In this document: piece after piece, positions 14,562 through 50,194 of the stretch
Layout: the number at the start of each line of letters is the position of its first letter
Position numbering within the stretch: the stretch's first letter is position 1
Assembly (NCBI GenBank): GCA_040757595.1
Contig: JBFLWP010000002.1
Span: 124,001 to 188,000, forward strand
Direction of reading: 5' to 3'
DNA from: Nitrospirota bacterium
GTDB lineage: Bacteria > Nitrospirota > Nitrospiria > Nitrospirales > Nitrospiraceae
DNA: 64,000 nt
Position numbers and translations under genes: made by a program
Notes under the pieces: generated by a model
What the model saw: only the letters and a program-made list of their open reading frames with translations
Told to the model about the DNA's origin: nothing
The model's database searches: none

Positions 14562-14569
14562 GGACCTCG

Positions 14570-17169: not shown

Positions 17170-17378
17170 CGCCCGCGGTCGATGAAGGAGAAGCGGGCAC
17201 GTTCGATTGCCCTGATGGTCACGCCAAGACGGTGAGCCCGCATGGTCCTTGAGGGGACAACCTCGATAAGGAGATTGGGCGGCTGTCTTTGGACCGGAAG
17301 GTTGGGCGACCGAGCCCGCATGGGAGGTTAACGGTCCATCTTTTTCAACGTCAGGGCCTCGTATTCCCTGTTGACAGA
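17170..17378 (+). ncRNA. Candidate bridge RNA region of the IS1111-type element
   Basis: IS1111-type elements carry their guide (bridge) RNA in the non-coding segment after the transposase. Here the 5' non-coding end is about 95 bases and the 3' end about 210, the expected asymmetry. The segment contains GAGCCCGCATGG twice (17234-17245 and 17312-17323) and several short self-complementary stretches. The assignment is by position and family knowledge; loops matching the target were not resolved by eye. Confidence 0.4.
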
Positions 17379-17400
17379 GGCCCTATTCATGGGAGGATCC

Positions 17401-20832: not shown

Positions 20833-20860
20833 CTCATCGGGCTTCCGAAAGGTGTTGGTG

Positions 20861-21580: not shown

Positions 21581-21585
21581 CCCTC

Positions 21586-24078: not shown

Positions 24079-24142
24079 GCCCCGTCCGTTTCGCCCAGTC
24101 TCCGCCGGCACGCTGCCGATCTCGTTCCGCCACGTCTCCTGT

Positions 24143-24151
24143 CCGTAATAT
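24143..24151 (+). promoter_or_regulatory. CCGTAATAT leader motif before S26 peptidase
   Basis: An exact copy followed by CAGAGCGGTGAC, which runs into the GTG start at 24159. AGAGCGG resembles the AGCGTG companion. Confidence 0.55.
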
Positions 24152-24158
24152 CAGAGCG

Positions 24159-24758: not shown

Positions 24759-24795
24759 CCACCCACGGCAGGCTGCGGCCAGATGGGCGCTCCGG

Positions 24796-24804
24796 TCGTA
24801 ATAT
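24796..24804 (+). promoter_or_regulatory. TCGTAATAT leader motif before traW
   Basis: GGTCGTAATATCCATACAGG matches the inverted copy at 51858 (GGTCGTAATACCAT). GTGTTGGCG follows at 24850, four bases into the traW coding region. Confidence 0.55.
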
Positions 24805-24846
24805 CCATACAGGAACGCTACCAAATTTCTTCGTGGGCGACTCAAC

Positions 24847-26013: not shown

Positions 26014-26025
26014 GAGGAGTCAATC

Positions 26026-26856
26026 ATGGTCTCGATTCGCCTCAGACTCATGCTCGGCATGGCGCTCCTAGTCGGCTGTGCCGGATTGCTGGAAAGTCCC
26101 GAGTTCGGTTGGGCCGGTGAGCGTGAGGCTCCCATCCTTGTCGCGCCGGGGTCGTCCCCGACTCCCCAACCGACTGATCCTGCTCAGGCGACGCTGCTAC
26201 AGCGTCTGCAGGCGGTCATGCCGGAGGTCGCCGTCGATTGGATCAAGCCCGGCCCAATTCCCGGCCTCTATACGATGAAGGCCGGCCGCTCGATCGTCTA
26301 CATGGATGCCTCGGGGCGGTATCTGTTTGCAGGCGGGATCTTTGACCTGCAGGCGCAGGTGAATCTCACCGCCTTGGTCCAGGGACAAGAAGCGGTGGCG
26401 CAACTGTGGGGGGGGCCGTTGGCGGATCTCGCGATCCCGCTCGGGGAGGCGGATCGTCCGGACAAAGAGATCGCCGTGTTCGATGACGTCGATTGTCCGT
26501 ATTGCAAGCGCCTGCATCCGGAGATCGACAAGCTGGTCCAGGCAGGCTGGCGCGTCTGGGTGCTGCTCTATCCCGTGCAGAAACTCCATCCGCATGCCTA
26601 TTCGAAGTCCGTGGGGATCTGGTGCGCCGAGGACCGCCCTGACGCGCTCCGTCGTGTCTGGTCCGGAGAGCGTGCAGGGGAGAAGAATTGCGCCCATCCC
26701 CTGGATCGCATCCAAGCCCTGGCACAGCAGGTCGGGGTGGCCGGGACCCCCACGATGGTGCTCAAGAGCGGCATCGTGATCCAGGGCTATCACAATGCCG
26801 AGTCCATCGTCTCGATGAGCCGGCCCCAGTCGGCTGCCGTCGCGGAGAAACCGTAG
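26026..26856 (+). CDS. dsbC: DsbC-type thiol-disulfide isomerase
   Basis: An N-terminal lipoprotein or signal segment is followed by a dimerisation-like domain (YTMKAGRSIVYMDASGRYLF) and a thioredoxin fold with DCPYCKRLHPEID (CPYC active site near residue 158) and the cis-Pro GTPTMVLKSG. It helps fold the cysteine-rich TraN and TraU, which follow. AGGAGG precedes the start. Confidence 0.9.
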   Translation: MVSIRLRLMLGMALLVGCAGLLESPEFGWAGEREAPILVAPGSSPTPQPTDPAQATLLQRLQAVMPEVAVDWIKPGPIPGLYTMKAGRSIVYMDASGRYLFAGGIFDLQAQVNLTALVQGQEAVAQLWGGPLADLAIPLGEADRPDKEIAVFDDVDCPYCKRLHPEIDKLVQAGWRVWVLLYPVQKLHPHAYSKSVGIWCAEDRPDALRRVWSGERAGEKNCAHPLDRIQALAQQVGVAGTPTMVLKSGIVIQGYHNAESIVSMSRPQSAAVAEKP

Positions 26857-26860
26857 CCGC

Positions 26861-29413: not shown

Positions 29414-30492
29414 GCGCCCGCACACTCCTGCTCGCCTTTGGATGGGCCCTGGCCGTGGCGGCGTTGATCGTTTGGCCGGATGACACTCGGGCGGAGAGCA
29501 CCCCCGGTTGCCGGGAAAACAACCTGTTCGGCGAAGTCATTGATCGGACCTGCTGGGAATGTATCTTCCCGGTCAGTTTCGCTGGATTCGTGCTGCACCA
29601 AGGCGACCAACCGGCGCACGACCCCGCCAAAGGTCAAACCAGCACGCTCTGTTTTTGTTGTCGTGAAGGAGAAATCGATTGCCCCCCCAGTGTGCCGATC
29701 GGCTATTGGGAGCCGGTTCGATTAGTCGAGATCGTCCATGAGCCGTTCTGCTTTCCGTCCTTTGGCGGGGTCGATCTCAACGGCGAGACCGATGTGGAAG
29801 GACGCGGGAGCGTGGGCAGCAGTCAAGCCGATCCGGAACGGGACATGGCGTATCTGAATGCGCATCTCGTGGAGTTCCCCTTGTTTGCGATCATCGGCTT
29901 GGTGACGGATGTCTTTTGTTTGAACGGGTTGTCCTTTACCGACAACATCGACGTCGTCTATCTGACCGAACTCGATCCTCTCTGGAGCGATGATGTGGCC
30001 GCCACGGTCATGGCTCCCGAGGCGGCCTTGATCGCAAATCCCATCGCACAAGCCGCCTGTGCGGCCGATGCGATCGCAGCCAGCAGTGGATTTCCGATTG
30101 ACGCGATGTGGTGGTGCGCGGGCGCCTGGGGATCGCTCTATCCGCCGACGGGCAACGTCTCCGGGGCGACGGCGGGGCCGGTGAAGTCTTCCGCCTTGAC
30201 CATGTCCCGGCTGATCGCCCACATGGCCCGTCTCGGAACAGAATGGTATACGGCCGGGGTCGAGGGTAATATTTGCTATGATTATCCGACGTTTATGATC
30301 GTCAAGAGCCAGTATAAGTTTCAGTTGTTGTGGCCCATCGCGAATACGGCCGGCGCCGGGATCCCGTGCTGCTCTCCGTTGGGCCGGACGACCTTCATGT
30401 GGGGGATGAGTAAAACCGTCCCGAGTTGGCCGGAGGATTTTGTCTACCTCCTCTGGCGCCTGCAGAATTGCTGCATGCGGTTGGGCGCGTAG
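29410..30492 (+). CDS. traU: Conjugal transfer protein TraU
   Basis: ATG within the ATGA overlap is chosen; the open frame extends upstream inside traN. A signal peptide is followed by a cysteine-rich protein: CWECIFPVSFAGF, TLCFCCREGEIDCPP, PIGYWEPVRLVEIV and MWWCAGAWGSLYPPTG, which are TraU signatures. Length is 360 residues. Periplasmic and needed for DNA transfer. Confidence 0.93.
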   Translation: MSARTLLLAFGWALAVAALIVWPDDTRAESTPGCRENNLFGEVIDRTCWECIFPVSFAGFVLHQGDQPAHDPAKGQTSTLCFCCREGEIDCPPSVPIGYWEPVRLVEIVHEPFCFPSFGGVDLNGETDVEGRGSVGSSQADPERDMAYLNAHLVEFPLFAIIGLVTDVFCLNGLSFTDNIDVVYLTELDPLWSDDVAATVMAPEAALIANPIAQAACAADAIAASSGFPIDAMWWCAGAWGSLYPPTGNVSGATAGPVKSSALTMSRLIAHMARLGTEWYTAGVEGNICYDYPTFMIVKSQYKFQLLWPIANTAGAGIPCCSPLGRTTFMWGMSKTVPSWPEDFVYLLWRLQNCCMRLGA

Positions 30493-30542
30493 GCGCCGGC
30501 CCTCCTTGATCTCCTCCTCCCGCCGTCCACGCAAGCGTTTGG

Positions 30543-30551
30543 ACGTAATAT
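30543..30551 (+). promoter_or_regulatory. ACGTAATAT leader motif before thioredoxin-like gene
   Basis: GGACGTAATATAGAGGTGATG: the motif is followed directly by AGAGGTG, which doubles as the ribosome site of the gene at 30559. Confidence 0.55.
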
Positions 30552-30558
30552 AGAGGTG

Positions 30559-30996
30559 ATGCCGCCGATCTGGGAGAAGACGTGTGCGTTCGCGTTGGCC
30601 TTCTCGATCAGCCTCGCCTCGATGGCATGGGCTGTCGAGGGGGAGCGGGCGATCATGGCCCTTTCCCGGATGGCCGAACTTCTCGTGGTGACTGCTCCAG
30701 GGTGTCAACCCTGTCCGGAACAGGTGGCCTACGCGCAAGCCGTCGCCGATCGGTACGGCTACCGAGTGCGGACCGTTGACCTCTCCGATCTCTCGACTCG
30801 GACGGTTCCAACCACGCTCTTCGCCATGCTCGAGCCCCTGCGCCCGACCTTGGGCGGCAAGACGCCCGTGGTCTTTGTGGCGGTCCCGGCTCTTCCGGCC
30901 TTGCTCCCCATCGTCTCCTCGTCCTCGCTTCCCCATTCGGCGGACGAACTCTCGGAGCGGCTTGGGATCGTGGCGGATCTCGCGTATGCCCAGTGA
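30559..30996 (+). CDS. Small periplasmic thioredoxin-like protein
   Basis: A signal peptide (FALAFSISLASMAWA) is followed by VVTAPGCQPCPEQVAYAQAV, with a C-x-x-C motif (CQPC), and a short alpha/beta region with TTLFAMLEPLRPTLGGKTPV. Length is about 145 residues. It probably assists disulfide chemistry of the transfer proteins, like the adjacent TraF. It has no clear F counterpart. Confidence 0.6.
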   Translation: MPPIWEKTCAFALAFSISLASMAWAVEGERAIMALSRMAELLVVTAPGCQPCPEQVAYAQAVADRYGYRVRTVDLSDLSTRTVPTTLFAMLEPLRPTLGGKTPVVFVAVPALPALLPIVSSSSLPHSADELSERLGIVADLAYAQ

Positions 30997-31003
30997 GGAG
31001 CGA

Positions 31004-31936
31004 ATGATTCGCAATCGGAACGCAGTCGTGATGCTGCTCTTCGCGGCGCTCGTGACGATCCTCTGGAGCGGCGTCGGCCGTGGAGAGGAGAATTTCTTCG
31101 GCTTGAACGAGAAGAAAGGGTGGTTTTGGTATGAGGACCCCCCGGATCCGCCCAAACCGGAGCATCAGGACGTCACGCCGGACGTGTCCGTCACCGTCTT
31201 GAAGAAGCCCAAAGCGCTGACCTGGGAGGAGCTGAAACGGATCTCCCTTGAGACGGTAGATCTTGACACGCTTCCGGCTCGATGGCTGCGCGCCATCGCG
31301 GATGCCAAGCGGGAATATGCGCTGGACGACCCCATTCCTGAGCGGGTCAAGGACTACATCGTGGTGCAACGTGCGGTCTTTGCTCGGAGCGAACGGTTTA
31401 CGTCCTCGTGGCAGGTGGTCATGTATGCCAATCCGGACCTTGACTACAGCAGCCAGCATCCGACCTCCGAGTTCGGGCATCAGGTGGAGGCGGATCTGGT
31501 TGCGGCGCGGGAAGAGGAACAATTGCGGAAAATCGCCGAGCGTGGCGGTCTCTTCTTCTTCTTCACCTCGACGTGCAAATTCTGCCAGGAGCAGGCCAAA
31601 ACCTTGCGGGTCTTCGCTGATACCTATGGCTTCTCGGTGCTGCCGATCTCGCTGGACGGGAAGGCGCTCCCTGAATTCCCAAATGTGAACGTGGACAACG
31701 GCATCGCCAAGCGGTTGGAGGTCAAGATGGTACCCACCCTCTATCTTGCGATCCCGGATGAGCGGGTCCTCACACCAATCGGCGCGGGAGTGCTCACGGT
31801 GTCGGACCTGAAGGAGCGGATCCTCCGCATGGCAGGGGTTCCGCCGGCCAAGGGGCTTGATCCGGCAACCTCATCCGAACCGGTCCCGACCACCGCGGCC
31901 GTGATCGCTCCACGCCCGGGCCGGTCTGCAAACTAG
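31004..31936 (+). CDS. traF: Conjugal transfer protein TraF (thioredoxin fold)
   Basis: GAGGAG precedes the chosen ATG. A signal peptide (VVMLLFAALVTILWSGVGRG), then KKGWFWYEDPP (a TraF hallmark), a helical segment and a thioredoxin domain with FFFTSTCKFCQEQAK (CKFC near residue 192) and the cis-Pro VPTLYLA. Many F-type TraF lack the cysteines; here they are present. Length is 310 residues. Confidence 0.9.
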   Translation: MIRNRNAVVMLLFAALVTILWSGVGRGEENFFGLNEKKGWFWYEDPPDPPKPEHQDVTPDVSVTVLKKPKALTWEELKRISLETVDLDTLPARWLRAIADAKREYALDDPIPERVKDYIVVQRAVFARSERFTSSWQVVMYANPDLDYSSQHPTSEFGHQVEADLVAAREEEQLRKIAERGGLFFFFTSTCKFCQEQAKTLRVFADTYGFSVLPISLDGKALPEFPNVNVDNGIAKRLEVKMVPTLYLAIPDERVLTPIGAGVLTVSDLKERILRMAGVPPAKGLDPATSSEPVPTTAAVIAPRPGRSAN

Positions 31937-31968
31937 GATGGTTGTCTGAAGGGATTCTGGAACCGCTT

Positions 31969-33354
31969 ATGCAACGGGTCGTCGGTCTGATCGTGGTCGC
32001 GTCCGTCTTCTGGCACGGCATCGCCTGGGCAGGCCTGGACAGTGAGCTCGGGCAGATGTTTCAGTCTTGGGGCATCTCCGGTGGGGCAACGGTCAACCAG
32101 GGCGGGGCCTATCAATCCCAGCAGCGGGGGTTTCTCTCCGGAGGCAGTGTCAGCGTGCGCGTCTACCGTCGTCCGCTCCCGCCGCTGGTGTCCTTTTCGA
32201 GACCTCGATTCAACGTCGGTTGCAACGGGATCGACGTGTATCTCGGGGCCTTTTCCTACGCCAAACTCGACCGGTTCGTCCAGATGCTCCAACAATTGGG
32301 GATGGGCGTGGTCGCCGGCTACGCCTTCAAGTTAGCGATGAAGGAGCTCTGCGAAACCTGCTCCAATGTCATGGATAACCTGGAGTCGGCCATCCGGTCC
32401 TTAAATGCCCTGACCAATCTCCAGCCCTGCCAGGCGAGCGTCAGACAGATCGAGAACACAGGGAAGAAGATCATGAACGCCGGATCGGAGCTGTGGGACA
32501 GCATCAAGGCCGCGGAAGGCGAATTGAGCGACCGGCTGGAAGGCAAGGGGAAGAAGCCTGATGCCGACAAACTCGCCGACATGAACAAGAACGACGAGAC
32601 GAGAGTCTCGTTCAACCTGGTGCATGATCCGCTCAAAAAGGCCGGCGTGGACGATGACACGATCCGCCTCATCATGTCGGCCACGGGGACCTTGACGGTC
32701 AACAATAACGGGACCCCGAAATGGGTGGGGGCCACGCTGTCCCTCGATCAGCTGGTGGATCTCAGGCCTGGGGATTCCGCCACGATCTTGATGTGCGGCG
32801 ACGAGTCGTGTCTCACCGTCGATGAAGTCGAGATTCCGCCCGGGGACATCACGGGTCTGGGTAAGCGCGTCAGGGACGCCATGGAATCCATTGCCGATAA
32901 GCTCGTGAATCGGACGGTCGAGCTCACCACCGAGGAACGGAAGATGGTGGAGATGTCCCCGCTGCCGTTCATGGTCAAACTGAGGCAGCAGAGCGTCGAG
33001 CGGAAAACCATGGCCGGGTACATCGAACGGAACGCGGAGGTCGTCTCCGTCGAAATGGCCCGTAAATGGATTGAGTTTGCCGTTCATGAAGCGCTCAAAA
33101 CGTTGGACTCCCTGAAGGAACTCCATCCGAATGCCGCGCTCTCGCCGGAGATGGAACGGAACGCCAGGGAAGCCCTGCAAGCCCGCGTCTGGATGGCGTC
33201 GGCCGACGCGGATAACCGCCTGCAACGCCTGACCGCGGCGATGCCGGTCGAAGTAATTGACCCTCACAGCAGCCGTGGAAAAGCCGTCCATGAGGCGTAC
33301 AAGACGTTGACGCAGGACCAGCCGCTCACACAGAGCACGACGATGGCGAAATGA
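31969..33354 (+). CDS. traH: Conjugal transfer protein TraH
   Basis: ATG at 31969 begins the signal peptide RVVGLIVVASVFWHGIAWA; TTG at 31942 would extend it. Typical TraH segments are SVSVRVYRRPLPPLVSFSRP, FNVGCNGIDVYLGAFSYAKL and LCETCSNVMDNLESAI, with a long helical C-terminus. Length is 461 residues. Periplasmic, part of the pilus assembly complex. The stop overlaps traG (ATGA). Confidence 0.93.
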   Translation: MQRVVGLIVVASVFWHGIAWAGLDSELGQMFQSWGISGGATVNQGGAYQSQQRGFLSGGSVSVRVYRRPLPPLVSFSRPRFNVGCNGIDVYLGAFSYAKLDRFVQMLQQLGMGVVAGYAFKLAMKELCETCSNVMDNLESAIRSLNALTNLQPCQASVRQIENTGKKIMNAGSELWDSIKAAEGELSDRLEGKGKKPDADKLADMNKNDETRVSFNLVHDPLKKAGVDDDTIRLIMSATGTLTVNNNGTPKWVGATLSLDQLVDLRPGDSATILMCGDESCLTVDEVEIPPGDITGLGKRVRDAMESIADKLVNRTVELTTEERKMVEMSPLPFMVKLRQQSVERKTMAGYIERNAEVVSVEMARKWIEFAVHEALKTLDSLKELHPNAALSPEMERNAREALQARVWMASADADNRLQRLTAAMPVEVIDPHSSRGKAVHEAYKTLTQDQPLTQSTTMAK

Positions 33355-36300
33355 CCTGGGAAATCCTCGCAATCGGCAACGGTGATTTGCTGTGGCAGAT
33401 CTTCAACGGGGTCAAACTGCTGACCCAGGGCCCCTGGTTCAGCCTCATGCAAGTCGTCGCGTTGCTTGCCATTCTAGCCGGGCTGACGATCGCGGCCGTG
33501 AAGCCTGACAGCTCCATGCATCAGGTGCTACTGCTGCCCATCCTGACGATCCTGATCATCGCGCTGGTCAGTTCCGGCATCAAGGTCAACGTCGCCATCA
33601 CGGACGTCTTGAATCCCACGACGCGGCAAGAGGTCCTGACCGACGTCCCGATCGGCGTGGCGCTGCCCTGGTGGATCCAGAGTCAATTCAGCTACGAATT
33701 GACGAGCCTGGTGAACGGGGCCTTCAGTGCCTCGGGGAAGCCGACGGTGTTCGAAGGCTTCATGAAACATCAGCTTGAACTGCAAGCCCTCATGACCGCG
33801 CAGCTGCCCGTCGGCGACGCCCGGCAGACCATGATTTCGTTCCTCAGTGAATGCGTGTTTCTCAACATGATCGGCGATGGACGAATCCTGAGCCCGAATC
33901 AGCTGCGGGACAGTCGCGATCTGCTGGGCGCGATTGGGGTCAACATGGTGGACCGGGTCCGCGCCAGCAACATGTTCGTCGATGGCAATATCGCCGCGAA
34001 CCGGCTCTGCCAAGATGCGTTCTTCAACAACGACGACGGGATCCTCGGGGTGCGCGCGATCTTCGGCGCGGACAACAACGGGGCCGACGGCGCCCATCCG
34101 GATTATCAGAAAGTCCTCCATCGGCTGATGCTGGTCACCGGGACCTCCGATTACAACGCGCTGGAAACCGAACTCGAAACCATGTTTGTCGGACTGACGG
34201 GCGTCCCCCTGCAGACGTGGACGAGCGAGTTCGGGTCATCGGCGCAGATCCGCGTTCCGCTCAATACCGTCCTGATTCGCGACGTCTGGGAGTCCGCCGT
34301 CGTCGTCGCCTTGGAAGCCGATCAGAACGTCGCCGGGGTGACCCGGCTCATGATCAGTTCGTTACGACGCGAACTGCAATACCAGACGTTCAGTCAGTCG
34401 TGGACGCTCAGTCAATGGGTGCCCATGATGCGCAGCCTCGCCGAATGCTTGGTGCTGATCATGGCCCCGTTCGGGCTCATCATCATGATGGCCAATGCGC
34501 GCCTCTTCGGAGTCGGCGCGTTCGTCAAGATGTTTCTGTGGCTGGCGCTCTGGTGGCCGCTGCTGGCCTTGCTGGATGCGACCATGTACTTCTACGCCGC
34601 CCGGGAATTGCGCATGGCGATGTTGTGCCCCAACGGGGCGCCGGATTCCTTGTTCAATTGGATCCAGCAGGCCATGACCACGCTGGGCAGCAATGCCATC
34701 GCGTGCCAGGGGATCACGCTCAGGAACTATGACCAGATCAAAACCATCATCTTGTCCATTAACGCGGTCGGCAACAACTTGATTGCGAGCGTGCCGGTCC
34801 TGGCCGGGGCCATCGTGTACACCGGGGGCAATCTCGCCGGCTCCGTGGCGGAACGGGTCGCCCAATCGGCCCCCGACAGCGGCGGGGTCTCGAAAAGCGC
34901 CGGGGCCGGCAAGCTGGACGCAGTCGGGTATGAAGGGGGAGGACGGATGATCACCTGGTCGCAGGAAACCGGCCTGACCTCCACGGCCGACTATATGCGT
35001 GGGGTGAAAGCGACTCATCGATCGGATGGATCGTCGGTGTATAGCGGCCTGGAAGGCAATTACACGACCGATCGCTTCGGGAACGTGATTGCCGGATCTC
35101 GCGTGCGACAGACGGAGGATGGGTCCACCGTGGAAACCACCGGCAACGGCAACGTTCAGAGGGTGACAACGACCCGGATGCGCGCGGATGGGACGAGCGA
35201 ACAGGTCGTTCAGACGTACAATACCGCCGGCGGCCAGAGACAGCTGTTCAGCACGGATACCTTCACGCGCTCCGCGGAGGGATTGACCGTACGCGGGGAG
35301 TTCAACGCCGACGGGAAAGGCACGATACAAGAGACGGGCGTCGATCGAGCCACCGGCCACGTCATCGAGCGGAAGCTCAACCAGGATCGGAGCGGTTCGG
35401 AGTCGCGTTCAGGGCAAGCGTGGGTGCCGGTGCTCCAGGAGGACGGATCGACTCGATCCGTGTTGATGGATGGCGAAATCCGGAGCCGATACGACAACGG
35501 CACGACGACGCCTATAACCGCGACGTTCAGGATGAATGACGAAAAAGGGACGCACCTCAGGCATGCCCGGTGGAATGCCGAGAAAGGCGCCTTCGAGTTT
35601 ATGGCTGGGCAGTCGGCGCGCGCCATCACGGATACGCGAGCCGCCATCGACCCCACGACCGGCAAACCGGCATTTCAGGAAATGGTCCTGGCCCCCGATG
35701 GAACGGTCGTAAGCCGAACCTATCGATCCGGCGCGTCGTCGCAGAACGACAGTTTCGAGGCCGATATCGACGGCGAACATCTGCGAGGCCGAGCGTCCAC
35801 GTTCATCGCCAATGACGGAACTCAGATCAAGCTCTTCGACGGCACCGTCCAGGGGGCTGACGGACAGGTCAGAAGAGCGACCGGCCTGATCTCCTCGGAC
35901 GCCGAAGGCCGTTCGAAGTTCGTGCAGCGCGACGATCTGGCAGGGATCGCCGGCGAAGACCGCGCGTTCAAGGGCAAGGTCGATAACTTCGAGCTCGAGG
36001 GTTCGCGTCGATGGCAATCCGTGGGAGGCAGGCTCATCGAAACCTTTTCCGGCTTGGTAGACGGCAGGCAGGGACACGGGATGTTCGTACGCGATAGGCA
36101 TGGCACTGAACGCTTTGTGCGTCTCGAGGCAAAGGGCGGGCTGAACATCCAACAGGAGGACGTCAATAATACCGTTCGTGAGCGGCTGAACATCAATCGC
36201 GAGAAGAACGTCAAGGATACGGTGAGCGAGAACATCGCACCTCATGAATGGACGGATGATGAGGGAAAGACGCATCGAGGGTTCAGTCGTGTCGTCACGG

Positions 36301-37169
36301 ATGCGGCGGGCAACGTTCTGACCTCCGAGCTGACGGATCTCCAGTCCCAAAAAGTCTGGCAGGCTTTTCAGGATCCGAAGACCGGAACATCCCATTACGG
36401 CGTCGCCGATCGTGTCATGACCTCTGGCGGCGCATACCGGATCCTGAAATTTCAGGAGATCGGCCAGGCCGAGATCGAACGGAACGGGTTTGCCACATCC
36501 ATGAAGCTGCTGTGGGACATTGATGAGAAGAAGAAAAAGAATGAGAAAAAGGAACTCTTTTCCAGGAGCGAGAAGGGGCAGGAGGTCAGGGATGCGTTTA
36601 CTTATAGCCTCGACCGAAGGGTCGAAGCGGCGGTCAGTGCGGCCTCCGGTTTTCTTAAAGAAGAAACCAACGATCTGACAAAAGGCGACCCACTCGCAAT
36701 AACGGGCTACGATGTGTCTCGCGACAAAACTCTACTGTACGCGGCATACCTCGATAAAGGCATCGAGATTACCCAAAAATTCGCCGACGTGGTGAATGAA
36801 CTAATTGGAGCGGGAAAGATTGGGAATGCCGCGAAGAAAGCGAATTCGTTCATGAAAAGGAAGTTCGGAGGCGGATCGGGCGGTTCGGCTGGAGGATCGA
36901 ATCCGTTACGCGGCGGCGGGGGCGGCGGCGGGAGCGTCGGCGGTCCGAAACGCGGGGGCGGCGGCGGGCCGCGCGAGCACTTGATGTCCCCTGAACCGGC
37001 CGATCCGGGGAGAACCGCCATGATCGAGCGCGCCCACGTCGAAGGCCATCCCGATGTGACCTTCCGCGCATATAGACGGAGGCGGTCGGCTCCGGCGCAG
37101 CAGCAGACTCCGCCGGAAGGGCCGTCGCCAGGGAGACGGGCCAGTGTGCCCCGCGACAGCGTTCAATAG
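33351..37169 (+). CDS. traG: Mating-pair stabilisation/exclusion protein TraG
   Basis: The N-terminal part (about 1-490) has several membrane helices (VVALLAILAGLTIAAV, LLLPILTILIIALVSSGI, LVLIMAPFGLIIMMANARLFG, FLWLALWWPLLALLDATMYFYA), as in TraG_N. The remaining 780 residues are a beta-rich series of DGT/GRV-type turns (about 530-900), then helices and a Gly/Pro-rich basic tail. The C-terminal part differs in composition from F TraG, whose C-terminus is helical. At 1,272 residues it is longer than F TraG (about 940). Confidence 0.88.
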   Translation: MTWEILAIGNGDLLWQIFNGVKLLTQGPWFSLMQVVALLAILAGLTIAAVKPDSSMHQVLLLPILTILIIALVSSGIKVNVAITDVLNPTTRQEVLTDVPIGVALPWWIQSQFSYELTSLVNGAFSASGKPTVFEGFMKHQLELQALMTAQLPVGDARQTMISFLSECVFLNMIGDGRILSPNQLRDSRDLLGAIGVNMVDRVRASNMFVDGNIAANRLCQDAFFNNDDGILGVRAIFGADNNGADGAHPDYQKVLHRLMLVTGTSDYNALETELETMFVGLTGVPLQTWTSEFGSSAQIRVPLNTVLIRDVWESAVVVALEADQNVAGVTRLMISSLRRELQYQTFSQSWTLSQWVPMMRSLAECLVLIMAPFGLIIMMANARLFGVGAFVKMFLWLALWWPLLALLDATMYFYAARELRMAMLCPNGAPDSLFNWIQQAMTTLGSNAIACQGITLRNYDQIKTIILSINAVGNNLIASVPVLAGAIVYTGGNLAGSVAERVAQSAPDSGGVSKSAGAGKLDAVGYEGGGRMITWSQETGLTSTADYMRGVKATHRSDGSSVYSGLEGNYTTDRFGNVIAGSRVRQTEDGSTVETTGNGNVQRVTTTRMRADGTSEQVVQTYNTAGGQRQLFSTDTFTRSAEGLTVRGEFNADGKGTIQETGVDRATGHVIERKLNQDRSGSESRSGQAWVPVLQEDGSTRSVLMDGEIRSRYDNGTTTPITATFRMNDEKGTHLRHARWNAEKGAFEFMAGQSARAITDTRAAIDPTTGKPAFQEMVLAPDGTVVSRTYRSGASSQNDSFEADIDGEHLRGRASTFIANDGTQIKLFDGTVQGADGQVRRATGLISSDAEGRSKFVQRDDLAGIAGEDRAFKGKVDNFELEGSRRWQSVGGRLIETFSGLVDGRQGHGMFVRDRHGTERFVRLEAKGGLNIQQEDVNNTVRERLNINREKNVKDTVSENIAPHEWTDDEGKTHRGFSRVVTDAAGNVLTSELTDLQSQKVWQAFQDPKTGTSHYGVADRVMTSGGAYRILKFQEIGQAEIERNGFATSMKLLWDIDEKKKKNEKKELFSRSEKGQEVRDAFTYSLDRRVEAAVSAASGFLKEETNDLTKGDPLAITGYDVSRDKTLLYAAYLDKGIEITQKFADVVNELIGAGKIGNAAKKANSFMKRKFGGGSGGSAGGSNPLRGGGGGGGSVGGPKRGGGGGPREHLMSPEPADPGRTAMIERAHVEGHPDVTFRAYRRRRSAPAQQQTPPEGPSPGRRASVPRDSVQ

Positions 37170-39128: not shown

Positions 39129-39616
39129 GCAGGAACCGCCCGTCTCCGTCAGGCATGGCGCAGGCGAGTGGCCGGTCGCGTCGCGAACTCATCGACGCGC
39201 GGGCATGGACCGATCTCGAGACGAGAACCGTTGGAATATCGAATACTTACAAATGACTATCGGCATAATCGCGCGGAACATTAAGGAAGAGAACCGGCAG
39301 GGGAAAATGAGCGAATATATTCGTACTATCAACCACTTCCATTCGCGCGGCGTCTGCGGAAAGGCCCGGGTGGCTACGGCGGGTTGCGCACGACGGTAAT
39401 ATCCTGTTGGAGCGTGTTGGTGATGAGGGGTTAGCGGGGAAGGCGAGCGATGTCAAAAAAAGGCGCGTTCGCCTCTTCCTTGGTGGGGAGGAAGCGGATC
39501 AGAGGGTGAGAGTTTCTTATAAAGCAGTATGATCTACGGGCCTGTGAAGGGACAACCTGTGCACAACCTGTCGCTATGCTCCGGATGCTTGATCTCTACA
39601 TATTGTGTTTTTTGCC
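39129..39616. other. Non-coding region with leader motif and hairpin
   Basis: No convincing gene is seen; open frames here are short and lack ribosome sites. The region carries CGGTAATAT (39394-39402), AGCGTGTTGGTG (39411-39422) and a strong hairpin (39438-39479: GGAAG plus GCGAGCG pairing with CGTTCGC plus CTTCC, with a 2-base bulge and an A-rich loop). Confidence 0.6.
39394..39422 (+). promoter_or_regulatory. CGGTAATAT + AGCGTGTTGGTG leader
   Basis: CGGTAATAT, 8 bases, AGCGTG (39411-39416), with GTGTTGGTG (39414-39422) overlapping its end. It resembles the copy at 42192 downstream of the methyltransferase gene. A hairpin follows 15 bases later. Confidence 0.55.
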
Positions 39617-42176: not shown

Positions 42177-42191
42177 ATTTTTAACTCACGG

Positions 42192-42220
42192 CTGTAATAT
42201 TCTTAGAGAGCGTGTTGGTG
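42192..42220 (+). promoter_or_regulatory. CTGTAATAT + AGCGTGTTGGTG leader
   Basis: CTGTAATAT (42192-42200), then AGAGAGCGTGTTGGTG (42205-42220). A perfect hairpin CGTCTTCC-ATCTTA-GGAAGACG (42229-42250) follows 9 bases later. The next 235 bases up to 42487 hold no gene. Confidence 0.6.
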
Positions 42221-42889: not shown

Positions 42890-42934
42890 GTCGTTTGAGC
42901 CCTCTCCTCTCCGTGGGGTCCTTGCCGTCTTTGG

Positions 42935-42943
42935 ACGTAATAC
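42935..42943 (+). promoter_or_regulatory. ACGTAATAC leader motif variant
   Basis: TTTGGACGTAATACCACTG, 58 bases before the gene at 43001 and just after a terminator, as expected for the head of a new unit. Confidence 0.5.
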
Positions 42944-43000: not shown

Positions 43001-43759
43001 ATGATGCCACGAGTCCTTAGTCGAGTCGGACCGGTCCAGGAGAGCCGACGCGCGTCGGTCGGCGGGGGTGTTCTCGTTGATCGTATTGCACAAGAGCCTC
43101 CGCCGTGGGCCACGACGCCGCTGCTGGCGTGGGATGAGAATCGGATTCAGCGGACTGAGCCGTTTGTGCGCCAGCGGTATTGGACCAACCGCGCCACCGT
43201 GAACGTCTTCCGCGTCATCGGCACTCAGCATCCAGACTACCAGGGCCTGACCTGGCTGGAGTTCCTCAAAAAGGGGAAACGCATGGGCCGGAACTTGGGT
43301 CTCTATGAGGCCAATCCCTCGTACTACACGGATATCGCGGTCAAGGAACCCACGATGTACTACCGGACCTTAGATGGTGGGCTCTCCTACTATGTGGCGG
43401 AAGATGGGAACCATCGGAGCGCCATTGCTCGATTTGACTGCTGGTACCGAGGGGATCTGCTCCTCCACGGAGTCACCGTCACCGACTTGCGGATTGACTG
43501 GGAGCTGGCCCGGCTCTACTCCCGCCTGCAGACCCTGATCGCAACCGGTGGCGCCCGGATGCACGGCAAGCAGGTCGAACCTGTCACCCGGCGAGTGTCA
43601 CGGGAGGATGGCCCGGGTTGGATGCTGGAAACCTTCACGCCCGTACTCAGGGTCCGGGATGGGGCCCAGGTCTTCGATGTCGGGTCGGCCGAGGCGATGG
43701 ACGTAGAGCAGCGATGGCTCAGACTGACCCGGCGGCCATGGTGGGTGTTTTGGACGTAA
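43001..43759 (+). CDS. ParB/sulfiredoxin-like domain protein
   Basis: YYVAEDGNHRSAIARF (near residue 135) matches the G-N-H-R-x-A motif of ParB/Srx-like folds. The N-terminal part is Pro/Arg-rich and the C-terminal domain ends in RRPWWVFWT. The ATG follows GGGAAG. Length is 252 residues. ParB/Srx folds bind nucleotide and often DNA; the substrate here is not known. The final codons and stop (TGG ACG TAA) form part of the next leader motif. Confidence 0.6.
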   Translation: MMPRVLSRVGPVQESRRASVGGGVLVDRIAQEPPPWATTPLLAWDENRIQRTEPFVRQRYWTNRATVNVFRVIGTQHPDYQGLTWLEFLKKGKRMGRNLGLYEANPSYYTDIAVKEPTMYYRTLDGGLSYYVAEDGNHRSAIARFDCWYRGDLLLHGVTVTDLRIDWELARLYSRLQTLIATGGARMHGKQVEPVTRRVSREDGPGWMLETFTPVLRVRDGAQVFDVGSAEAMDVEQRWLRLTRRPWWVFWT

Positions 43760-43762
43760 TAT
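43753..43762 (+). promoter_or_regulatory. GACGTAATAT leader motif before NusA-like gene
   Basis: The motif overlaps the stop of the preceding gene. GAGAGGTGTTGGTG (43785-43798) follows and overlaps the GTG start of the NusA-like gene, so the circuit may control its own regulator. Confidence 0.6.
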
Positions 43763-43789: not shown

Positions 43790-44428
43790 GTGTTGGTGCT
43801 CGATATCCTGCAAATCGGCCATCTCGTCTTTGGGCGTGTTGTCAAGGCGCACCCGGATAAGAGTGCGTACCTGATCATGTTGACGACCGGCCATTTAGCC
43901 ATCCTCCCAAAGGAAGAAGAAGACCGACCCTACAAGGTCGGGGATAATCTCGCCGCCGCGGTCAGCCGGATCGGGGACAGTCACCCGATCCTGTCTCAGC
44001 GGTCCGTCCACTACATTCGAAAAGTCGCCGATACGCTGCTGATCCCGTTGATTCGGGCGCAACGGGTCAAAATTCGCGGTGTGGCCAGCGCGGTGGGGGC
44101 CCCCTTCGTCAAGATCGCCATCGAAGAACTCACGGACGATGACCCGATGGGGGACTGTCTCAAGCTTCTCCTCGACTTTAAGTCGTACCTGACCCCTACA
44201 GTGGTGCTTGTGCGGTTTGATTCAGACTTGGAGGCCTATATTACCAATGCCCTGGCCCCCGCTCCACGGAATAAGATTCGGCGCATCGTGATACTGCATT
44301 CGACGCGATCGGCTCAAGTTCTCGTCGAAACGTCCAGCGTCAGAGCCTTCCTGGGTTACAAGGGGCTCAACGTGGCCGTCGCGAATAAACTCGTCAAGCG
44401 GCATATCGAAATCGTAGGGGTCACGTAA
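43790..44428 (+). CDS. NusA-like transcription elongation factor (S1/KH)
   Basis: GTG start. Residues about 1-65 look like an S1-type beta barrel (GHLVFGRVVKAHPDKSAYLI, LPKEEEDRPYKVGD). Residues about 80-212 follow the NusA KH1-KH2 pattern: VKIRGVASAVGAPFVKIAIE, DDPMGDCLKLLLD, LEAYITNALAPAP (compare NusA FIANALSPA) and VLVETSSVRAFLGYKGLNVA (compare LSLAIGKGGQNV). It lacks the NusA N-terminal polymerase-binding domain and is about half-length (212 versus about 400-500). The degraded GXXG loops suggest altered RNA recognition. A mobile-element NusA paralogue is unusual. Confidence 0.75.
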   Translation: MLVLDILQIGHLVFGRVVKAHPDKSAYLIMLTTGHLAILPKEEEDRPYKVGDNLAAAVSRIGDSHPILSQRSVHYIRKVADTLLIPLIRAQRVKIRGVASAVGAPFVKIAIEELTDDDPMGDCLKLLLDFKSYLTPTVVLVRFDSDLEAYITNALAPAPRNKIRRIVILHSTRSAQVLVETSSVRAFLGYKGLNVAVANKLVKRHIEIVGVT

Positions 44429-44537: not shown

Positions 44538-45260
44538 ATGTCGCAACAGAGCGTCGTCAGTGAATCGAACGGAAGCACGGAAGGTCGTGGTAATGGGGTC
44601 AGGAGCGGGAGAGACCGATCCGAGCGGGCCGAGCGGATTCAGGCCATGAACATCGAACGCGCCAAGGATCCGCGCAGCGTGATCATCCTGCCCAAGACGA
44701 ACGAGGGCTTCATGATGTGTCGCATGATGATCGCGCTGGACAGAGCCGTCTACAGGCTGCGGCGCGAGATCGGGAGCAGCATCTCTTTCGACAAGGCCGC
44801 CGTGGCGCTCAAGAAAGTCGAGGATCTCGGGGCGGCCATGAAGGACGCATTGAAGAAGTTCGGCATCCACGATGCCGGGGTGTTCGGCGCCCAGAATGAT
44901 CTGGAAGCGCCCGAGGTGAGGGTCGCGTTCGCGGCGCGCCGGAATGCGTACGTGTTTCTCCCCCGGACTCAGTCGCTTCGCGATTTGATCTATGGGGTGC
45001 GGCATCTGGACAGCGCCATGCTGTCGTGCCGGTTGACCAGCACCGATCTCTCGGCCTCGGCGACGTCCCTGAAACAGGCCATCGAGGTCGTCAAGCAGGT
45101 CAATGACCTGACGGCCGAGCTGTCGGCGCTGGTCGGCATTGACTACGATCCTCCGCGCCGTTACGAGCAGTTGGAGGGGGGCGAGCCGAAAGAACCGAGG
45201 GCCCCGAAGGCTCCGAAGGAACCAAAAGCTTCAACGGTTTCGGCCGTTGCCGCGTCCTGA
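44538..45260 (+). CDS. Hypothetical protein with Lys/Pro/Glu tail
   Basis: AAGGAGGAG precedes ATG. The 240-residue product has a charged N-terminus, a helical core (FMMCRMMIALDRAVYRLRRE, LRDLIYGVRHLDSAMLSC) and a C-terminal EPKEPRAPKAPKEPKA repeat. It resembles conserved ICE/plasmid proteins of unknown role but no family is named with confidence. Confidence 0.5.
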   Translation: MSQQSVVSESNGSTEGRGNGVRSGRDRSERAERIQAMNIERAKDPRSVIILPKTNEGFMMCRMMIALDRAVYRLRREIGSSISFDKAAVALKKVEDLGAAMKDALKKFGIHDAGVFGAQNDLEAPEVRVAFAARRNAYVFLPRTQSLRDLIYGVRHLDSAMLSCRLTSTDLSASATSLKQAIEVVKQVNDLTAELSALVGIDYDPPRRYEQLEGGEPKEPRAPKAPKEPKASTVSAVAAS

Positions 45261-45410: not shown

Positions 45411-46100
45411 ATGCGACGTGTGGTGTTGGTGATCAGCGTGATCGCGGGATTGGCCGGGTGCGTGTCGAAAACAGAGTACCGCGCCCTCATGGACAAATAC
45501 GCCCATACCCTGGCGATCAAGAATGAACTCGATGTGGAGTACGGGGACCTCCGCAAACAGGTTGGGGTCCTGGAGCAAGGACATGGGAAGCTCGCCGGCA
45601 GCCTGACGGAGATGAAGCAGGCGCACACGGCTTCAACCGGCCAGATGAAGCTCATGCAGCAGGATCTCGAGTCGGCTAAGGGCCTCTTGCAGAAGGAGGC
45701 TCAGCTCATTCAGGAACTTCGGACCACGGTCGGCTCGCTCAAAACTCAGGTCGAGCAAGACGCGATGGACCTGAAGCGGGCGTTGGATGACGCCCAGGCC
45801 GAAGTCCGCGCCAGCCAGGAGGATCTGCGGCGCCAACTTCAGGCTCTGCAGAAGCGTGTCAACGATCTCGTCGTGAAGGTTCGGAGGATGACCGCTGCCG
45901 GGGACAAGAAGTCCGGCTCAAGTACGGCCGTGCCGGACAGCCCCAAGGCCGTATCGGACAACGGCAAAAAGGCAGTCGGTCCGAACCAGGATGGCTCTTC
46001 CGCAGCTCAAGGGACACCGGAAGGAACGGAGCAGCCCGCGGCCGACCCCGGGCCTCCTCCGTTGATCGGCACGCCGAGCGAAGCCGGAGGCAAGTCGTGA
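45411..46100 (+). CDS. Coiled-coil lipoprotein
   Basis: The lipobox GLAGC places the lipid cysteine near residue 17. Residues about 25-165 are continuous coiled coil; the C-terminus is a Pro/Ser-rich linker. AAAGGAG precedes ATG. GTGTTGGTG (45423-45431) lies inside its first codons. Coupled to the next gene by a GTGA overlap. Probably a periplasmic spacer or envelope component. Confidence 0.65.
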   Translation: MRRVVLVISVIAGLAGCVSKTEYRALMDKYAHTLAIKNELDVEYGDLRKQVGVLEQGHGKLAGSLTEMKQAHTASTGQMKLMQQDLESAKGLLQKEAQLIQELRTTVGSLKTQVEQDAMDLKRALDDAQAEVRASQEDLRRQLQALQKRVNDLVVKVRRMTAAGDKKSGSSTAVPDSPKAVSDNGKKAVGPNQDGSSAAQGTPEGTEQPAADPGPPPLIGTPSEAGGKS

Positions 46101-46447
46101 CCCATTCCATCTGGCTGCTCACCACGGAAACCATTCCTGGGCGCCACTACGAGATCTTGGGATTGTTGATCGAGCAGGAAATTATCGGGCTCAATGTCGC
46201 CCGAGACCTCTTCGCGCAAGTGAAGGATTTCTTCGGTGGGCGTGTCGGCAGCTACGATGCGCCCATTCGGGCCGGAATGACCGACTGCTTCGAACGACTC
46301 AAACAGCGCGCGAAAGAGGCCGGCGGGGACGCCGTCGTGGGGCTCCGTGTCAGCCTCATGCCTGTCCCCTTCAAGAAGATGACCATGTTGCAAATCTGCG
46401 CCTATGGGACAGCCGTTCGACTGCTTGATCCGATGGAGTCCCCATGA
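46097..46447 (+). CDS. YbjQ/UPF0145-family protein
   Basis: TTETIPGRHYEILGLLIEQE, then NVARDLFAQVKDFFGGRVGS and AGGDAVVGLRVSL match the YbjQ (heavy-metal-binding-like) fold, with usual length about 105-116. The biochemical role of the family is unclear. Translationally coupled to both neighbours, so it belongs to the lipoprotein-transglycosylase operon. Confidence 0.8.
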   Translation: MTHSIWLLTTETIPGRHYEILGLLIEQEIIGLNVARDLFAQVKDFFGGRVGSYDAPIRAGMTDCFERLKQRAKEAGGDAVVGLRVSLMPVPFKKMTMLQICAYGTAVRLLDPMESP

Positions 46448-46998
46448 CGACCCTTCACCGACGAAAGGCTCGGAAGTCCGCCCTGCTGATCGCGATCCTC
46501 TGGATCGTCATTCTCGGAGTCTGCTGGGTGTTTGCCTTGGCCGTGTCTGTTCGGGCCGAGGCGTGGACCCCGCCGGCCTGCATGGAACAGATTGCTGACT
46601 ACTGGCGAATACCACCCTCCCTCATCCACGCCATTGTCCAGATCGAGAGCGGCGGTGATCCCATCGCCTTGAACGTCAATTCGCACGGACAGGGGAGGCG
46701 AGAGCTCGTGTCCTCGAAGCGGGACGCCGAGCGACGGATCGCGCGTCTGCTCCGGGAACGGGCCAATTTCGACGTAGGCTTGGGACAGATCAACGTCTGG
46801 ACGGCCATCTCGTACGGCGTCCATCCGGCGTGGATGCTCGATCCGTGCTGGAATTTGTTCGTCACGGCTCGCCATCTCCGCGAGAAGATCGACCGGCACG
46901 GGTATAACTGGACTGCTATCGAACGCTACAACGGCATCAATCCGAGGTATCCATGGAAGGTGTACGGGCAGTTACGACGGATGGCGGGCTCGCGATAA
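46444..46998 (+). CDS. Lytic transglycosylase (VirB1-like)
   Basis: An N-terminal membrane or signal helix (LLIAILWIVILGVCWVFALAV) precedes an SLT domain with catalytic Glu68 (IHAIVQIESGGDP), the FDVGLGQINVW motif and the C-terminal YNWTAIERYNG segment. Such enzymes open peptidoglycan for the transfer channel (F TraT/Orf169 or VirB1 role). Length is 184 residues. Confidence 0.88.
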   Translation: MTTLHRRKARKSALLIAILWIVILGVCWVFALAVSVRAEAWTPPACMEQIADYWRIPPSLIHAIVQIESGGDPIALNVNSHGQGRRELVSSKRDAERRIARLLRERANFDVGLGQINVWTAISYGVHPAWMLDPCWNLFVTARHLREKIDRHGYNWTAIERYNGINPRYPWKVYGQLRRMAGSR

Positions 46999-47386: not shown

Positions 47387-47800
47387 ATGCGGACATGGAT
47401 GTTATTGATCAGGCCGGGGTGGTACGGGCGGGTCAAGCAGTTTCTCGAGCATATTGGCGTCACGGAGATGCAACGGATGGACGACTACATCATTTGTCAG
47501 GGTCCTGATGATCTGAAGGAGACCGTACGGAATTGTCAAAGCGTGCTCACGATCGTCCCGCTCGAATCGGCGCCGGATTCGGGGACCGTCGAGCAGAATG
47601 GGGCGCCCGATACCGATGCGATCAAGCCGGGGGAGTTGGTCACGGTCAAGATCGAGGGCGGGGCCACCATGACCGGCCAGCTTCATGCGATCCTGGGTGA
47701 AACCGTCATCGTCCATGTGTGGTGTTTCGGCCGCGTGCTGCCCCTCACCACGCAGCGAGCTGCCTTGAAGCGCGTCGAACTGCCGGAAGCGTGGCGGTAA
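47387..47800 (+). CDS. NusG-like transcription factor (RfaH/ActX type)
   Basis: ATG at 47387 gives 137 residues. The N-terminal NGN-like domain begins TWMLLIRPGWYGRVKQFLEHI (compare NusG WY-x-x-G-x-E-x-x-V). After a linker, the KOW-like C-terminal part reads IKPGELVTVKIEGGATMTG, then VHVWCFGRVLPLTTQRAALK, matching the NusG end (F-G-R-x-T-P-V-x-L-x-x-x-Q-V). It is shorter than chromosomal NusG (about 175-180). Plasmid-borne NusG paralogues such as ActX regulate long operons through a leader site. Confidence 0.72.
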   Translation: MRTWMLLIRPGWYGRVKQFLEHIGVTEMQRMDDYIICQGPDDLKETVRNCQSVLTIVPLESAPDSGTVEQNGAPDTDAIKPGELVTVKIEGGATMTGQLHAILGETVIVHVWCFGRVLPLTTQRAALKRVELPEAWR

Positions 47801-47821: not shown

Positions 47822-49159
47822 GTGACTGTCGTGGGACCACGTCGGACCTCATTCGCTCAACTACTCTCGCGGTTCCTCCCCTGGAAATCCGCTCGTGGTC
47901 CGACCGAGGAAGCCCCGTTGGTCATTCCATTAGAGAGCTTGGCTGACCTGTGGAAGAATCGGAATAGGGCCCGGCAGGCTTCCGGTCGGACCGAGACATC
48001 ACCGACGAGCCAGGCTTCTGCCGTTCCGTTTCAGCCGATCACGCCTGGCCATGCCGATCAGGCGCCTCCTCAGGAACAACCGGCGACCACGGATGTCACG
48101 CATTCGGTCCCATCCCGTGCGGGTTCCGGACACTCCGCCCGTCTTCTTGATCAATTCCTCGTCCCCAACCGGCACCTTCTGGGATCCGCGTGGGAGCCGC
48201 TCGTCGCAGTCTGCGAGCTCCTTGAGGCCAACCCCAACGATCCGTCCGTCGTGATCGTCGAGTCGTCACGTGACGAGGAAAGCATGGAACTCTTCTCCAT
48301 TCGGGACACCTTAGCGAAGGTCCCACTCAAGCACCACACGGCCCGGGTCACCCGACACGCCCTCGATCTCCTGGCCCAGCAATATCGGACGCCAGAACCA
48401 CTGCTTGCGAAACTCCTCACGATTGCCCTCGGCCATGACATCGGAAAGATCGCCACGTTGCGCCAGAGCGGGATTTACACGATGTCGGATCATCCCAAGA
48501 TCAGTTCCTCGAAACTCCGGGAGATCTTCGCGCCGTATGCCGTCACGCAGAACCTGCATTGGCTGGACGAGGCCTTGAACAGCATCGAGGAGCATCATCG
48601 GGTCAGCCGCAATCCATTGACCAATATCCTGCAAATGGCGGATCGGAAGGCCCGCGAAGAAGAAGTGCAGCTCATGAGCCGCGATATCACCGTCCAACCC
48701 TGGGAGTCATGGTGCAAACCGGCCGACCTTTTATCGATCGTGGCCGAGAAAATCAACGTGCTCGAGCGAGGCCAGTCGTCGTGGAGAGGGATCTCCTTCG
48801 AGGGGGTCGTCTATTGCAAGCCGGAGTGGATGTATGAAGCCGCCAAAAAGCTTGCCAATCACAGACGGGTGATCGACTTGGTGCTGGTCGCCACGTCGGA
48901 GAAGGAAACCGCATACCGGCGCCTGGTCGAGACGCTGAGACAGGCTGATCTCCTGGCGCTGGATGTTGGCCCTGGCTATTACGGGCTGCCGTTCGAAATC
49001 CGATCGCCCCACTTGAAGAATCCGAAGAAGCACGCTTTGGTTCCAATTAAAATTGAGGCGTTCGGTCAGAAAGCCGGCGAGTTCGAGCAGATGAAAGAGG
49101 GGATCTTGCAAACCATCTCGTCTATCAAGCCGGCCAGGAGCGGCTCGCTCTTTCCCTAA
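47822..49159 (+). CDS. HD-domain protein, candidate MobH-like relaxase
   Basis: An N-terminal Pro-rich linker precedes an HD hydrolase-type domain: KHHTARVTRHALDLLA, ALGHDIGKIATL (HD near residue 204), EEHHRV and LQMADRKAREEE. A C-terminal domain of about 160 residues follows (FEGVVYCKPEWMYEAAKKLA, GPGYYGLPFEI). MobH/TraI_2 relaxases of R27- and SXT-type elements have the same order, an HD-like domain then a C-terminal domain. No other relaxase is in the window. A nucleotide-phosphohydrolase is the alternative. Confidence 0.55.
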   Translation: MTVVGPRRTSFAQLLSRFLPWKSARGPTEEAPLVIPLESLADLWKNRNRARQASGRTETSPTSQASAVPFQPITPGHADQAPPQEQPATTDVTHSVPSRAGSGHSARLLDQFLVPNRHLLGSAWEPLVAVCELLEANPNDPSVVIVESSRDEESMELFSIRDTLAKVPLKHHTARVTRHALDLLAQQYRTPEPLLAKLLTIALGHDIGKIATLRQSGIYTMSDHPKISSSKLREIFAPYAVTQNLHWLDEALNSIEEHHRVSRNPLTNILQMADRKAREEEVQLMSRDITVQPWESWCKPADLLSIVAEKINVLERGQSSWRGISFEGVVYCKPEWMYEAAKKLANHRRVIDLVLVATSEKETAYRRLVETLRQADLLALDVGPGYYGLPFEIRSPHLKNPKKHALVPIKIEAFGQKAGEFEQMKEGILQTISSIKPARSGSLFP

Positions 49160-49465: not shown

Positions 49466-50194
49466 ATGGGAAAGGGTGGGGGGCTGCTCCCGATCATCGG
49501 CGAGCGGCCAAAGCCAAAAAGTTTAATCGAGGCGATTTCCGACATCCAGATGTACGCCAATATGGAACGGGACGGTCAGCCGCTGCCGGAATCCTATCTC
49601 CTCTTACGAGAGCGGATGAGCTTCATGGAGGTGGGGTTGAAAGGAGGCTTGGTGAGCACCTTGATCAGCGGTCTCACCCTGCCGATCAGTGTGGCGGTGA
49701 TCGAACAGCTCTTCCCAATTTTCGGGACGACGCACCCAAGCGCCTTCGATCAGATGTTTGCCCTCCTGCTGAGCGTCAGCTTTGCCCTCGGATACAACAT
49801 CGTGACGGCGATGAATTTATCCGCCTGCTTTATCGGTCCGTGGAGCAAGAAAGCGATTTACGCGCTCTACGGCGCGCTCTTTACAGGGAAGGCCCTGGTC
49901 GTGGTCGGCCTCTTTTGGTTCTACCATTACCTCTATTTCTTCCTGACGCCGAATCGACTCGGGCTGTTCGTTGAGAAGACGCAATTCATCCAGAAACTCC
50001 TCCTGCTCACCCCGGGCACGGTCGGGCACCTGACCGCGTGGATTCTTCAGATTCGTCATGCCTTCCTGATTGCCGCCTGGCTTGTGCTGGTTCTGACCAC
50101 CTTAACCGCGGTCGTCTCGATCGTCATTTTTCTCCTGGGTCAACATCGGATCCAGCGGGACCTCGCCAAGAAGCGGTTGTACCTGGATCAATGA
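49466..50194 (+). CDS. Multi-pass membrane protein
   Basis: AGGAGG lies 8-13 bases before ATG. The 242-residue protein has four to five membrane helices (for example FALLLSVSFALGYNIVTAMN, ALFTGKALVVVGLFWFYHYL, LIAAWLVLVLTTLTAVVSIV). With its small neighbour it may be a coupling- or envelope-associated pair near the HD-domain protein. No family is recognised. Confidence 0.55.
   Translation: MGKGGGLLPIIGERPKPKSLIEAISDIQMYANMERDGQPLPESYLLLRERMSFMEVGLKGGLVSTLISGLTLPISVAVIEQLFPIFGTTHPSAFDQMFALLLSVSFALGYNIVTAMNLSACFIGPWSKKAIYALYGALFTGKALVVVGLFWFYHYLYFFLTPNRLGLFVEKTQFIQKLLLLTPGTVGHLTAWILQIRHAFLIAAWLVLVLTTLTAVVSIVIFLLGQHRIQRDLAKKRLYLDQ

Follow-up and report, generated by a model that had tools for sequence, protein, structure and literature searches.

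A predicted, very divergent NusG/Spt5-superfamily protein encoded with NusA-like and sigma-like proteins on an F-type conjugative element of Nitrospira

A short open reading frame in the window (the whole 64 000-nucleotide stretch of Nitrospirota DNA that was analysed) encodes what is almost certainly a very divergent NGN–KOW member of the NusG/Spt5 superfamily, as judged from sequence profiles and a predicted fold. The protein, which we call mini-NusG, is part of the fixed gene backbone of a conjugative element of the F type found in Nitrospira and its order. Together with a NusA-like protein (mini-NusA) and a sigma-like protein of the same element it looks like part of an element-encoded transcription module, and on balance we think that it is a specialised NusG paralogue that keeps RNA polymerase processive through the tra operon of about 25 kb (antitermination). 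The features are summarized in Table 1.

The mini-NusG frame opens with an ATG at 47387, ends with a stop codon at 47798–47800 and encodes 137 residues beginning MRTWMLLIRPGWYGRVKQFLE. Its coordinates agree with the original prediction, and both motifs quoted there, WxLLIRPGWYGRVKQFLE and FGRVLPLTTQ, are present in the translation. Homologues are found in other genomes, the C-terminal LPEAWR is conserved, dN/dS values of 0.09–0.29 for close pairs indicate purifying selection and the position between a lytic transglycosylase (SLT) gene and an HD gene is kept in all seven relatives first examined. Judged by its homologues, dN/dS and conserved position, the frame is a genuine protein-coding gene.

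Table 1. Features of the window discussed in the text (positions are those of the window; numbers alone in the ORF descriptions are start positions).
Feature	Position	Strand	Remarks
Compact NusG/Spt5-superfamily protein (mini-NusG, predicted)	47387..47800	+	NGN about residues 1–59, linker 60–79, KOW about 80–131
NGN-like domain	47387..47563	+	Predicted β-α-β-β-α-β
KOW domain (predicted), end at FGR motif region	47624..47779	+	NusG KOW retrieved by family profile
F-type T4SS tra operon, about 25 kb	12358..37169	+	Pilin ORF to end of TraG-size ORF
Sigma-70 region-2-only protein	1273..1899	+	Pfam Sigma70_r2 7e-4, below cut-off in window copy
mini-NusA, S1-KH1-KH2	43790..44428	+	NCBIfam NusA 3e-10; PDB NusA 1e-12; Foldseek NusA 1.7e-11
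Conserved backbone protein following mini-NusA	44538..45260	+	Synteny
Lipoprotein-like coiled-coil protein, conserved	45411..46100	+	
YbjQ-family protein, conserved backbone	46097..46447	+	
Lytic transglycosylase (SLT; VirB1-like), conserved backbone	46444..46998	+	
HD-domain protein, conserved backbone	47822..49159	+	Directly downstream of mini-NusG
Membrane-like conserved protein	49466..50194	+	Marks backbone end
Motif (GGCCGTAATAT)	1129..1139	+	About 130 nt 5' of sigma-like ORF
Motif, 1 mismatch	9016..9026	+	5' of ORF 9102
Motif	9206..9216	+	5' of ORF 9262; same place in G259, G135, G321
Motif	12318..12328	+	5' of pilin ORF; same place in G257, G275, G259, G321
Motif	15968..15978	+	After traB
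Motif	24141..24151	+	5' of ORF 24159
Motif, 1 mismatch	24794..24804	+	5' of ORF 24847; same place in G259
Motif, 1 mismatch	30541..30551	+	Between traU and traF
Motif, 1 mismatch	39392..39402	+	5' of ORF 39720, then GTGTTGGTG
Motif, 1 mismatch	42190..42200	+	5' of ORF 42488, then GTGTTGGTG
Motif, 1 mismatch	42933..42943	+	5' of ORF 43001
Motif, 1 mismatch	43752..43762	+	Directly 5' of mini-NusA gene
TGTTGGTG copies	10166, 12381, 12802, 20853, 39415, 42213, 43791, 45424	+	

As a single sequence, mini-NusG retrieved nothing significant from Pfam, NCBIfam, the PDB (phmmer), plasmids or phages, and it does not reach the curated cut-offs of PF02357 and the NCBIfam NusG models. A family profile built from an alignment of eight members, used to search the PDB (177 635 sequences), placed NusG first with an E value of 4.8e-9, and the first 34 matches are all NusG/Spt5. 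Searching 396 genomes of the phylum gave 14 family members (E ≤ 3.3e-20); beyond these, from E about 1e-8 upward, most matches are to the KOW half of NusG of the housekeeping type, and in the nine genomes checked they are the PF02357 matches. Profile–profile comparison (hhalign) with NusG of the phylum (17 sequences) aligned the full length and both domains with a probability of 96.6%, pairing the N-terminal aromatic residues (WY), the PGY strand with Tyr34 and the FGR motif; the NGN domain has a gap of about 25 residues. The AF2 model, calculated from a shallow alignment of six sequences (the window protein and those of related loci), has the order β-α-β-β-α-β followed by a five-stranded barrel, with a mean pLDDT of 75 (about 80–91 in the NGN part). 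With this model, the first 29 Foldseek matches in the PDB are all Spt5/NusG (best value 2.8e-6, about 150 columns), the best being an archaeal Spt5. Global TM scores are low (0.3–0.4), owing to a flexible linker and the shallow alignment. The sequence match of the NGN portion is weak when taken alone. That mini-NusG is unrelated to NusG, and owes its resemblance to chance or to a generic KOW/SH3-like barrel with another function, would fit the single-sequence searches, but the profile, profile–profile and fold comparisons all rank NusG/Spt5 first across both domains; we consider this very improbable and already largely refuted. The proposed NGN–KOW architecture, for which a structure prediction had been suggested as a check, is borne out by all three approaches.

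The further description of the protein as RfaH-like is a functional analogy. The curated NCBIfam RfaH model is unmatched and ops is absent. The predicted KOW domain is a β-barrel in the AF2 model, with no sign of the autoinhibited α-hairpin state of RfaH; AF2 may miss fold switching. In the NGN domain, a stretch of about 25 residues found in bacterial NusG from helix 1 to the PGY strand is missing. The domain falls well short of the NGN of bacterial NusG or RfaH in length and is nearer in size to archaeal Spt5, which likewise has a compact NGN followed by one KOW, whereas mini-NusG is a bacterial mobile-element protein. Tyr34 is invariant in the family and aligns with the tyrosine of the NusG PGY strand, which hints at binding to the RNA polymerase clamp. 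Genome G000 also carries a housekeeping-type NusG (C1) and another PF02357 paralogue (C12), and mini-NusG is an additional NusG-family gene besides housekeeping nusG, as in specialised NusG paralogues (NusG-SP).

The tra operon runs in the order pilin ORF, ORFs at the TraL/E positions, TraK, TraB, an IS110/PKD insertion, TraV, TraC, TrbC-type, DsbC-like, TraN, TraU, TraF, TraH and TraG-size ORF; the element also encodes ParB-like and ParM-like proteins. Relatives show the recurrent order pilin...TraH...mini-NusA, ORF 44538, lipoprotein, YbjQ, SLT, mini-NusG, HD, ORF 49181 and ORF 49466, and this synteny was found in eight relatives, with pilin and TraB, TraC, TraU, TraF and TraH included. The insertion between traB and traV (16132–20832) consists of an IS110 transposase and a 1153-residue PKD-domain protein. 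Repeats are present at several places: at least nine 25 bp tandem repeats at 709–1024, 5' of the sigma-like and ParB-like genes, are possibly replication or partition iterons; three 71 bp direct repeats at 51633–51845 near the ParM-like gene, two of them with AATACTCTTTTGAGATGTTGTC, may be a centromere or a leader; and blocks of 60–300 bp, up to 99% alike, surround duplicated genes downstream of the element (54130–61240). An Rfam scan of the window returned no family.

The NusA-like and sigma-like genes that had been placed on the same element were both located there. The mini-NusA frame opens at the S1 domain and has no N-terminal RNA-polymerase-binding domain; open frames of mini-NusA are 214–249 residues long compared with more than 350 for chromosomal NusA, and in the alignment the GxxG motif is kept in KH2 and missing from KH1. 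Homologues of the sigma-like protein exceed the Sigma70_r2 Pfam cut-off (4.8e-10 and 8.5e-6), and neither the window copy nor any of six homologues matched Sigma70_r4 (–35 recognition). In relatives the sigma-like gene lies upstream of the backbone on the opposite strand, and it is a candidate gp55-like sigma.

Co-occurrence with the NusA-like gene, proposed earlier as a check, is complete: mini-NusA is present in all 14 mini-NusG carriers among the 396 genomes. It occurs in three further genomes (G377, G176 and G052), two of which hold a distant NusG-like gene. Such distant homologues (142–146 residues) are found in F-type elements of other phylum members; in G176 and G052 the contig with the distant gene also holds mini-NusA, and in G166, which has a distant gene, mini-NusA was not found. 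G377 keeps mini-NusA and the sigma-like gene, with no NusG-like gene detectable at the syntenic place. A possible KOW remnant there (L111, about 8400–8740), an ORF of about 75 residues with a faint KOW-like stretch, has too weak a score to be put forward. The sigma-like profile matched 13 of the 396 genomes, namely 12 of the 14 mini-NusG carriers and G377; in the two carriers without a match, the module lies on contigs of only 21.6 and 9.9 kb. Among named records, mostly Nitrospira MAGs, all seven loci found via mini-NusA have mini-NusG downstream, and a scan of viral contigs with mini-NusA gave no relative. The co-occurrence reflects shared membership of the element and does not by itself prove physical cooperation.

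The motif GNCCGTAATAY has 14 matches with at most one mismatch in the window, compared with 2.5 expected on both strands; 12 of the 14 are on the forward strand, and nearly all matches lie at gene junctions. GTAATA is found 3–110 nt 5' of the mini-NusA gene in nine of 11 close relatives, some of which are near-identical to one another, and is missing in G289 and G377. None of the 20 forward GTAATAY copies in the backbones of relatives falls within a CDS match, compared with 13 of the 19 reverse copies; the forward copies recur before ORF 9262, pilin and traW-position genes. Alignment of 30 sites gives G at –4 (26/30), C at –2 and –1 (19–20/30) and a pyrimidine at +6; the bases at –4, –2 and –1 were not used in selecting the sites. 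No second conserved block (–35) is seen across these sites, a hairpin just 3' of the motif, ops-like or in RNA, is not significant (p = 0.076) and the motif lies 5–6 nt before the start codon in G275, G321 and G257. The directional placement at junctions and the recurrence before mini-NusA in most relatives establish the 'leader motif' of the original prediction as real and tied to the module, mainly 5' of mini-NusA; it is not specifically linked to the mini-NusG gene itself. Neither outcome that the original prediction had named as refuting it was seen, since an NGN–KOW fold is predicted and the motif accompanies the module across relatives.

The motif is not a word exclusive to the element: the 11-mer is at control level genome-wide in relatives, where only the positions are conserved, and in the window's genome the element stretch holds six of the 13 exact matches on its forward strand. 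Also rejected was a longer leader of two parts (GTAATA ... GTGTTGGTG), which occurs at several window sites and is not general in relatives. The word TGTTGGTG has eight copies on the forward strand and none on the reverse strand in the first 52.5 kb, often just after GTAATA or at a gene start. Contig C7 of G321 has GACCGTAATAC several times on a single strand, beyond the element stretch that was analysed.

Having one conserved block, no –35 element and, in three relatives, a start codon 5–6 nt downstream, the motif may equally well be a promoter of the –10 type. We give about an even chance to GNCCGTAATAY being a –10-only promoter that host core polymerase recognizes together with the sigma-region-2 protein of the element; tra would then be controlled at initiation, and mini-NusG would serve elongation in general without having its own DNA signal. 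The spacing fits leaderless transcripts that start 6–7 nt after a –10, and the sigma-like protein is conserved in carriers of the element and missing from the rest of the sample. Phage T4 offers a precedent: its late promoters are recognized without a –35, and gp55 has regions 2.1–2.4 (PMC2988020). Here too a region-2-type sigma accompanies a single-block promoter-like motif; the sequence relation seen between the two proteins is limited to Sigma70_r2. Against a promoter, in G289 the sigma-like protein is present but the module genes lack an exact forward motif, only a single backbone site is seen in G249 and the window element has far more sites than the elements of relatives.

Alternatively, the motif may be an ops-like non-template-strand or nascent-RNA site that loads mini-NusG, alone or with mini-NusA. 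Its directionality and junction placement would suit such a site, and its length and register are like those of ops (GGCGGTAGCGTG), with G1, C3, G5, T6, A7 and a pyrimidine at position 11 shared and differences at positions 4, 8, 10 and 12. RfaH reads G5 and T6 of ops and needs G4 and G8 (PMC5995543); G4, G8 (of the C3:G8 pair) and G12 are not kept in the motif. The resemblance is within chance for a short motif, the hairpin lacks significance (p about 0.08) and no motif is specifically tied to the mini-NusG gene, and we regard a loading site as rather unlikely. The two explanations of the motif compete, and we favour the promoter, which is compatible with the antitermination role proposed for mini-NusG.

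In the mechanism that we propose, the sigma-region-2 protein would start element transcripts with host polymerase, probably at GNCCGTAATAY sites. The NGN domain of mini-NusG would clamp the host RNA polymerase, as in NusG, and mini-NusG would outcompete host NusG on polymerases transcribing the element. Polymerase carrying it would pause less and suffer less Rho-dependent polarity, and so might pass through the tra operon, while mini-NusA, without the usual polymerase-binding domain, may hold the nascent RNA of the same complexes. We infer polymerase binding, antitermination, cooperation with mini-NusA and the reader of the motif, and tra is suggested as the target by synteny with the operon. 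The mini-NusG gene is in the same orientation as the T4SS genes and about 10 kb past them, so that targets other than tra are possible. E. coli NusG contacts Rho and S10 through Phe165 (GPF). The equivalent KOW positions vary in the mini-NusG family (GGA, GPY, GHY and GAM), and the normal Rho/S10 contacts may therefore be lost. These changes, and a location between the lytic transglycosylase and HD genes instead of at the operon front, would also suit a protein that acts on the host, displacing NusG and weakening Rho-dependent silencing or transcription–translation coupling, or on late backbone genes only; the fixed place in a long conjugation cluster with NusA-like and sigma-like genes points instead to transcription of the element, and we think action on the host or on late genes improbable. 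Antitermination in tra is our preferred role. A more extended proposal, put forward tentatively and with slightly less than even confidence, is a full add-on for host polymerase, in which a half-sigma at private –10-only promoters and a mini-NusA/mini-NusG elongation pair would form a phage-like takeover module in a plasmid or ICE lineage.

NusG paralogues resident in plasmid tra operons have been proposed as tra antiterminators (PMC7593976; PMC7819879). RfaH with ops on the F plasmid tra operon resembles our case in that an NGN–KOW NusG paralogue has a long F-type tra operon as proposed target and a short directional signal, here a candidate, lies near transcription units. RfaH differs in being chromosomal and in its far longer NGN, whereas mini-NusG is encoded by the element, along with a sigma-region-2 protein and mini-NusA. 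The IncX plasmids (R6K and relatives) carry ActX, the mechanism of which is unknown (PMC13250579) and which is similarly a NusG paralogue in a conjugation cluster with a lytic transglycosylase gene; it is related to RfaH and leads a vir-type operon, whereas mini-NusG is missed by NusG models, lies downstream of an operon of the F type and is linked to mini-NusA. LoaP, UpxY and TaA are also cis-encoded NusG paralogues serving one long cluster, and differ in that their clusters are for antibiotics or capsules and in that here the element supplies a NusA-like protein; LoaP counteracts the NusA of its host at an RNA hairpin (PMC12691694). The λ N and rrn complexes (NusA, NusB, NusE and NusG) are the model invoked for NusA and NusG acting jointly on nascent RNA, although boxA/boxB, NusB and an N-like protein were not identified for the element and mini-NusA has no polymerase-binding domain.

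NusG paralogues of conjugation clusters are already known; this one is accompanied by a NusA relative and a sigma-region-2 protein, and a literature search that covered few subscription journals found no NusA/NusG pair described on a conjugative element. Both hypotheses for the motif, promoter and loading site, can be tested directly. With a NusG, a NusA and a half-sigma of its own, the element can probably read its long transfer operon without host regulators. If this is true, one mobile element would supply both initiation and elongation factors in a lineage of nitrifiers, Nitrospira, in which conjugation has been little studied, and mini-NusG would represent a class of NusG proteins missed by standard models and, with mini-NusA, a minimal two-protein system for studies of antitermination.
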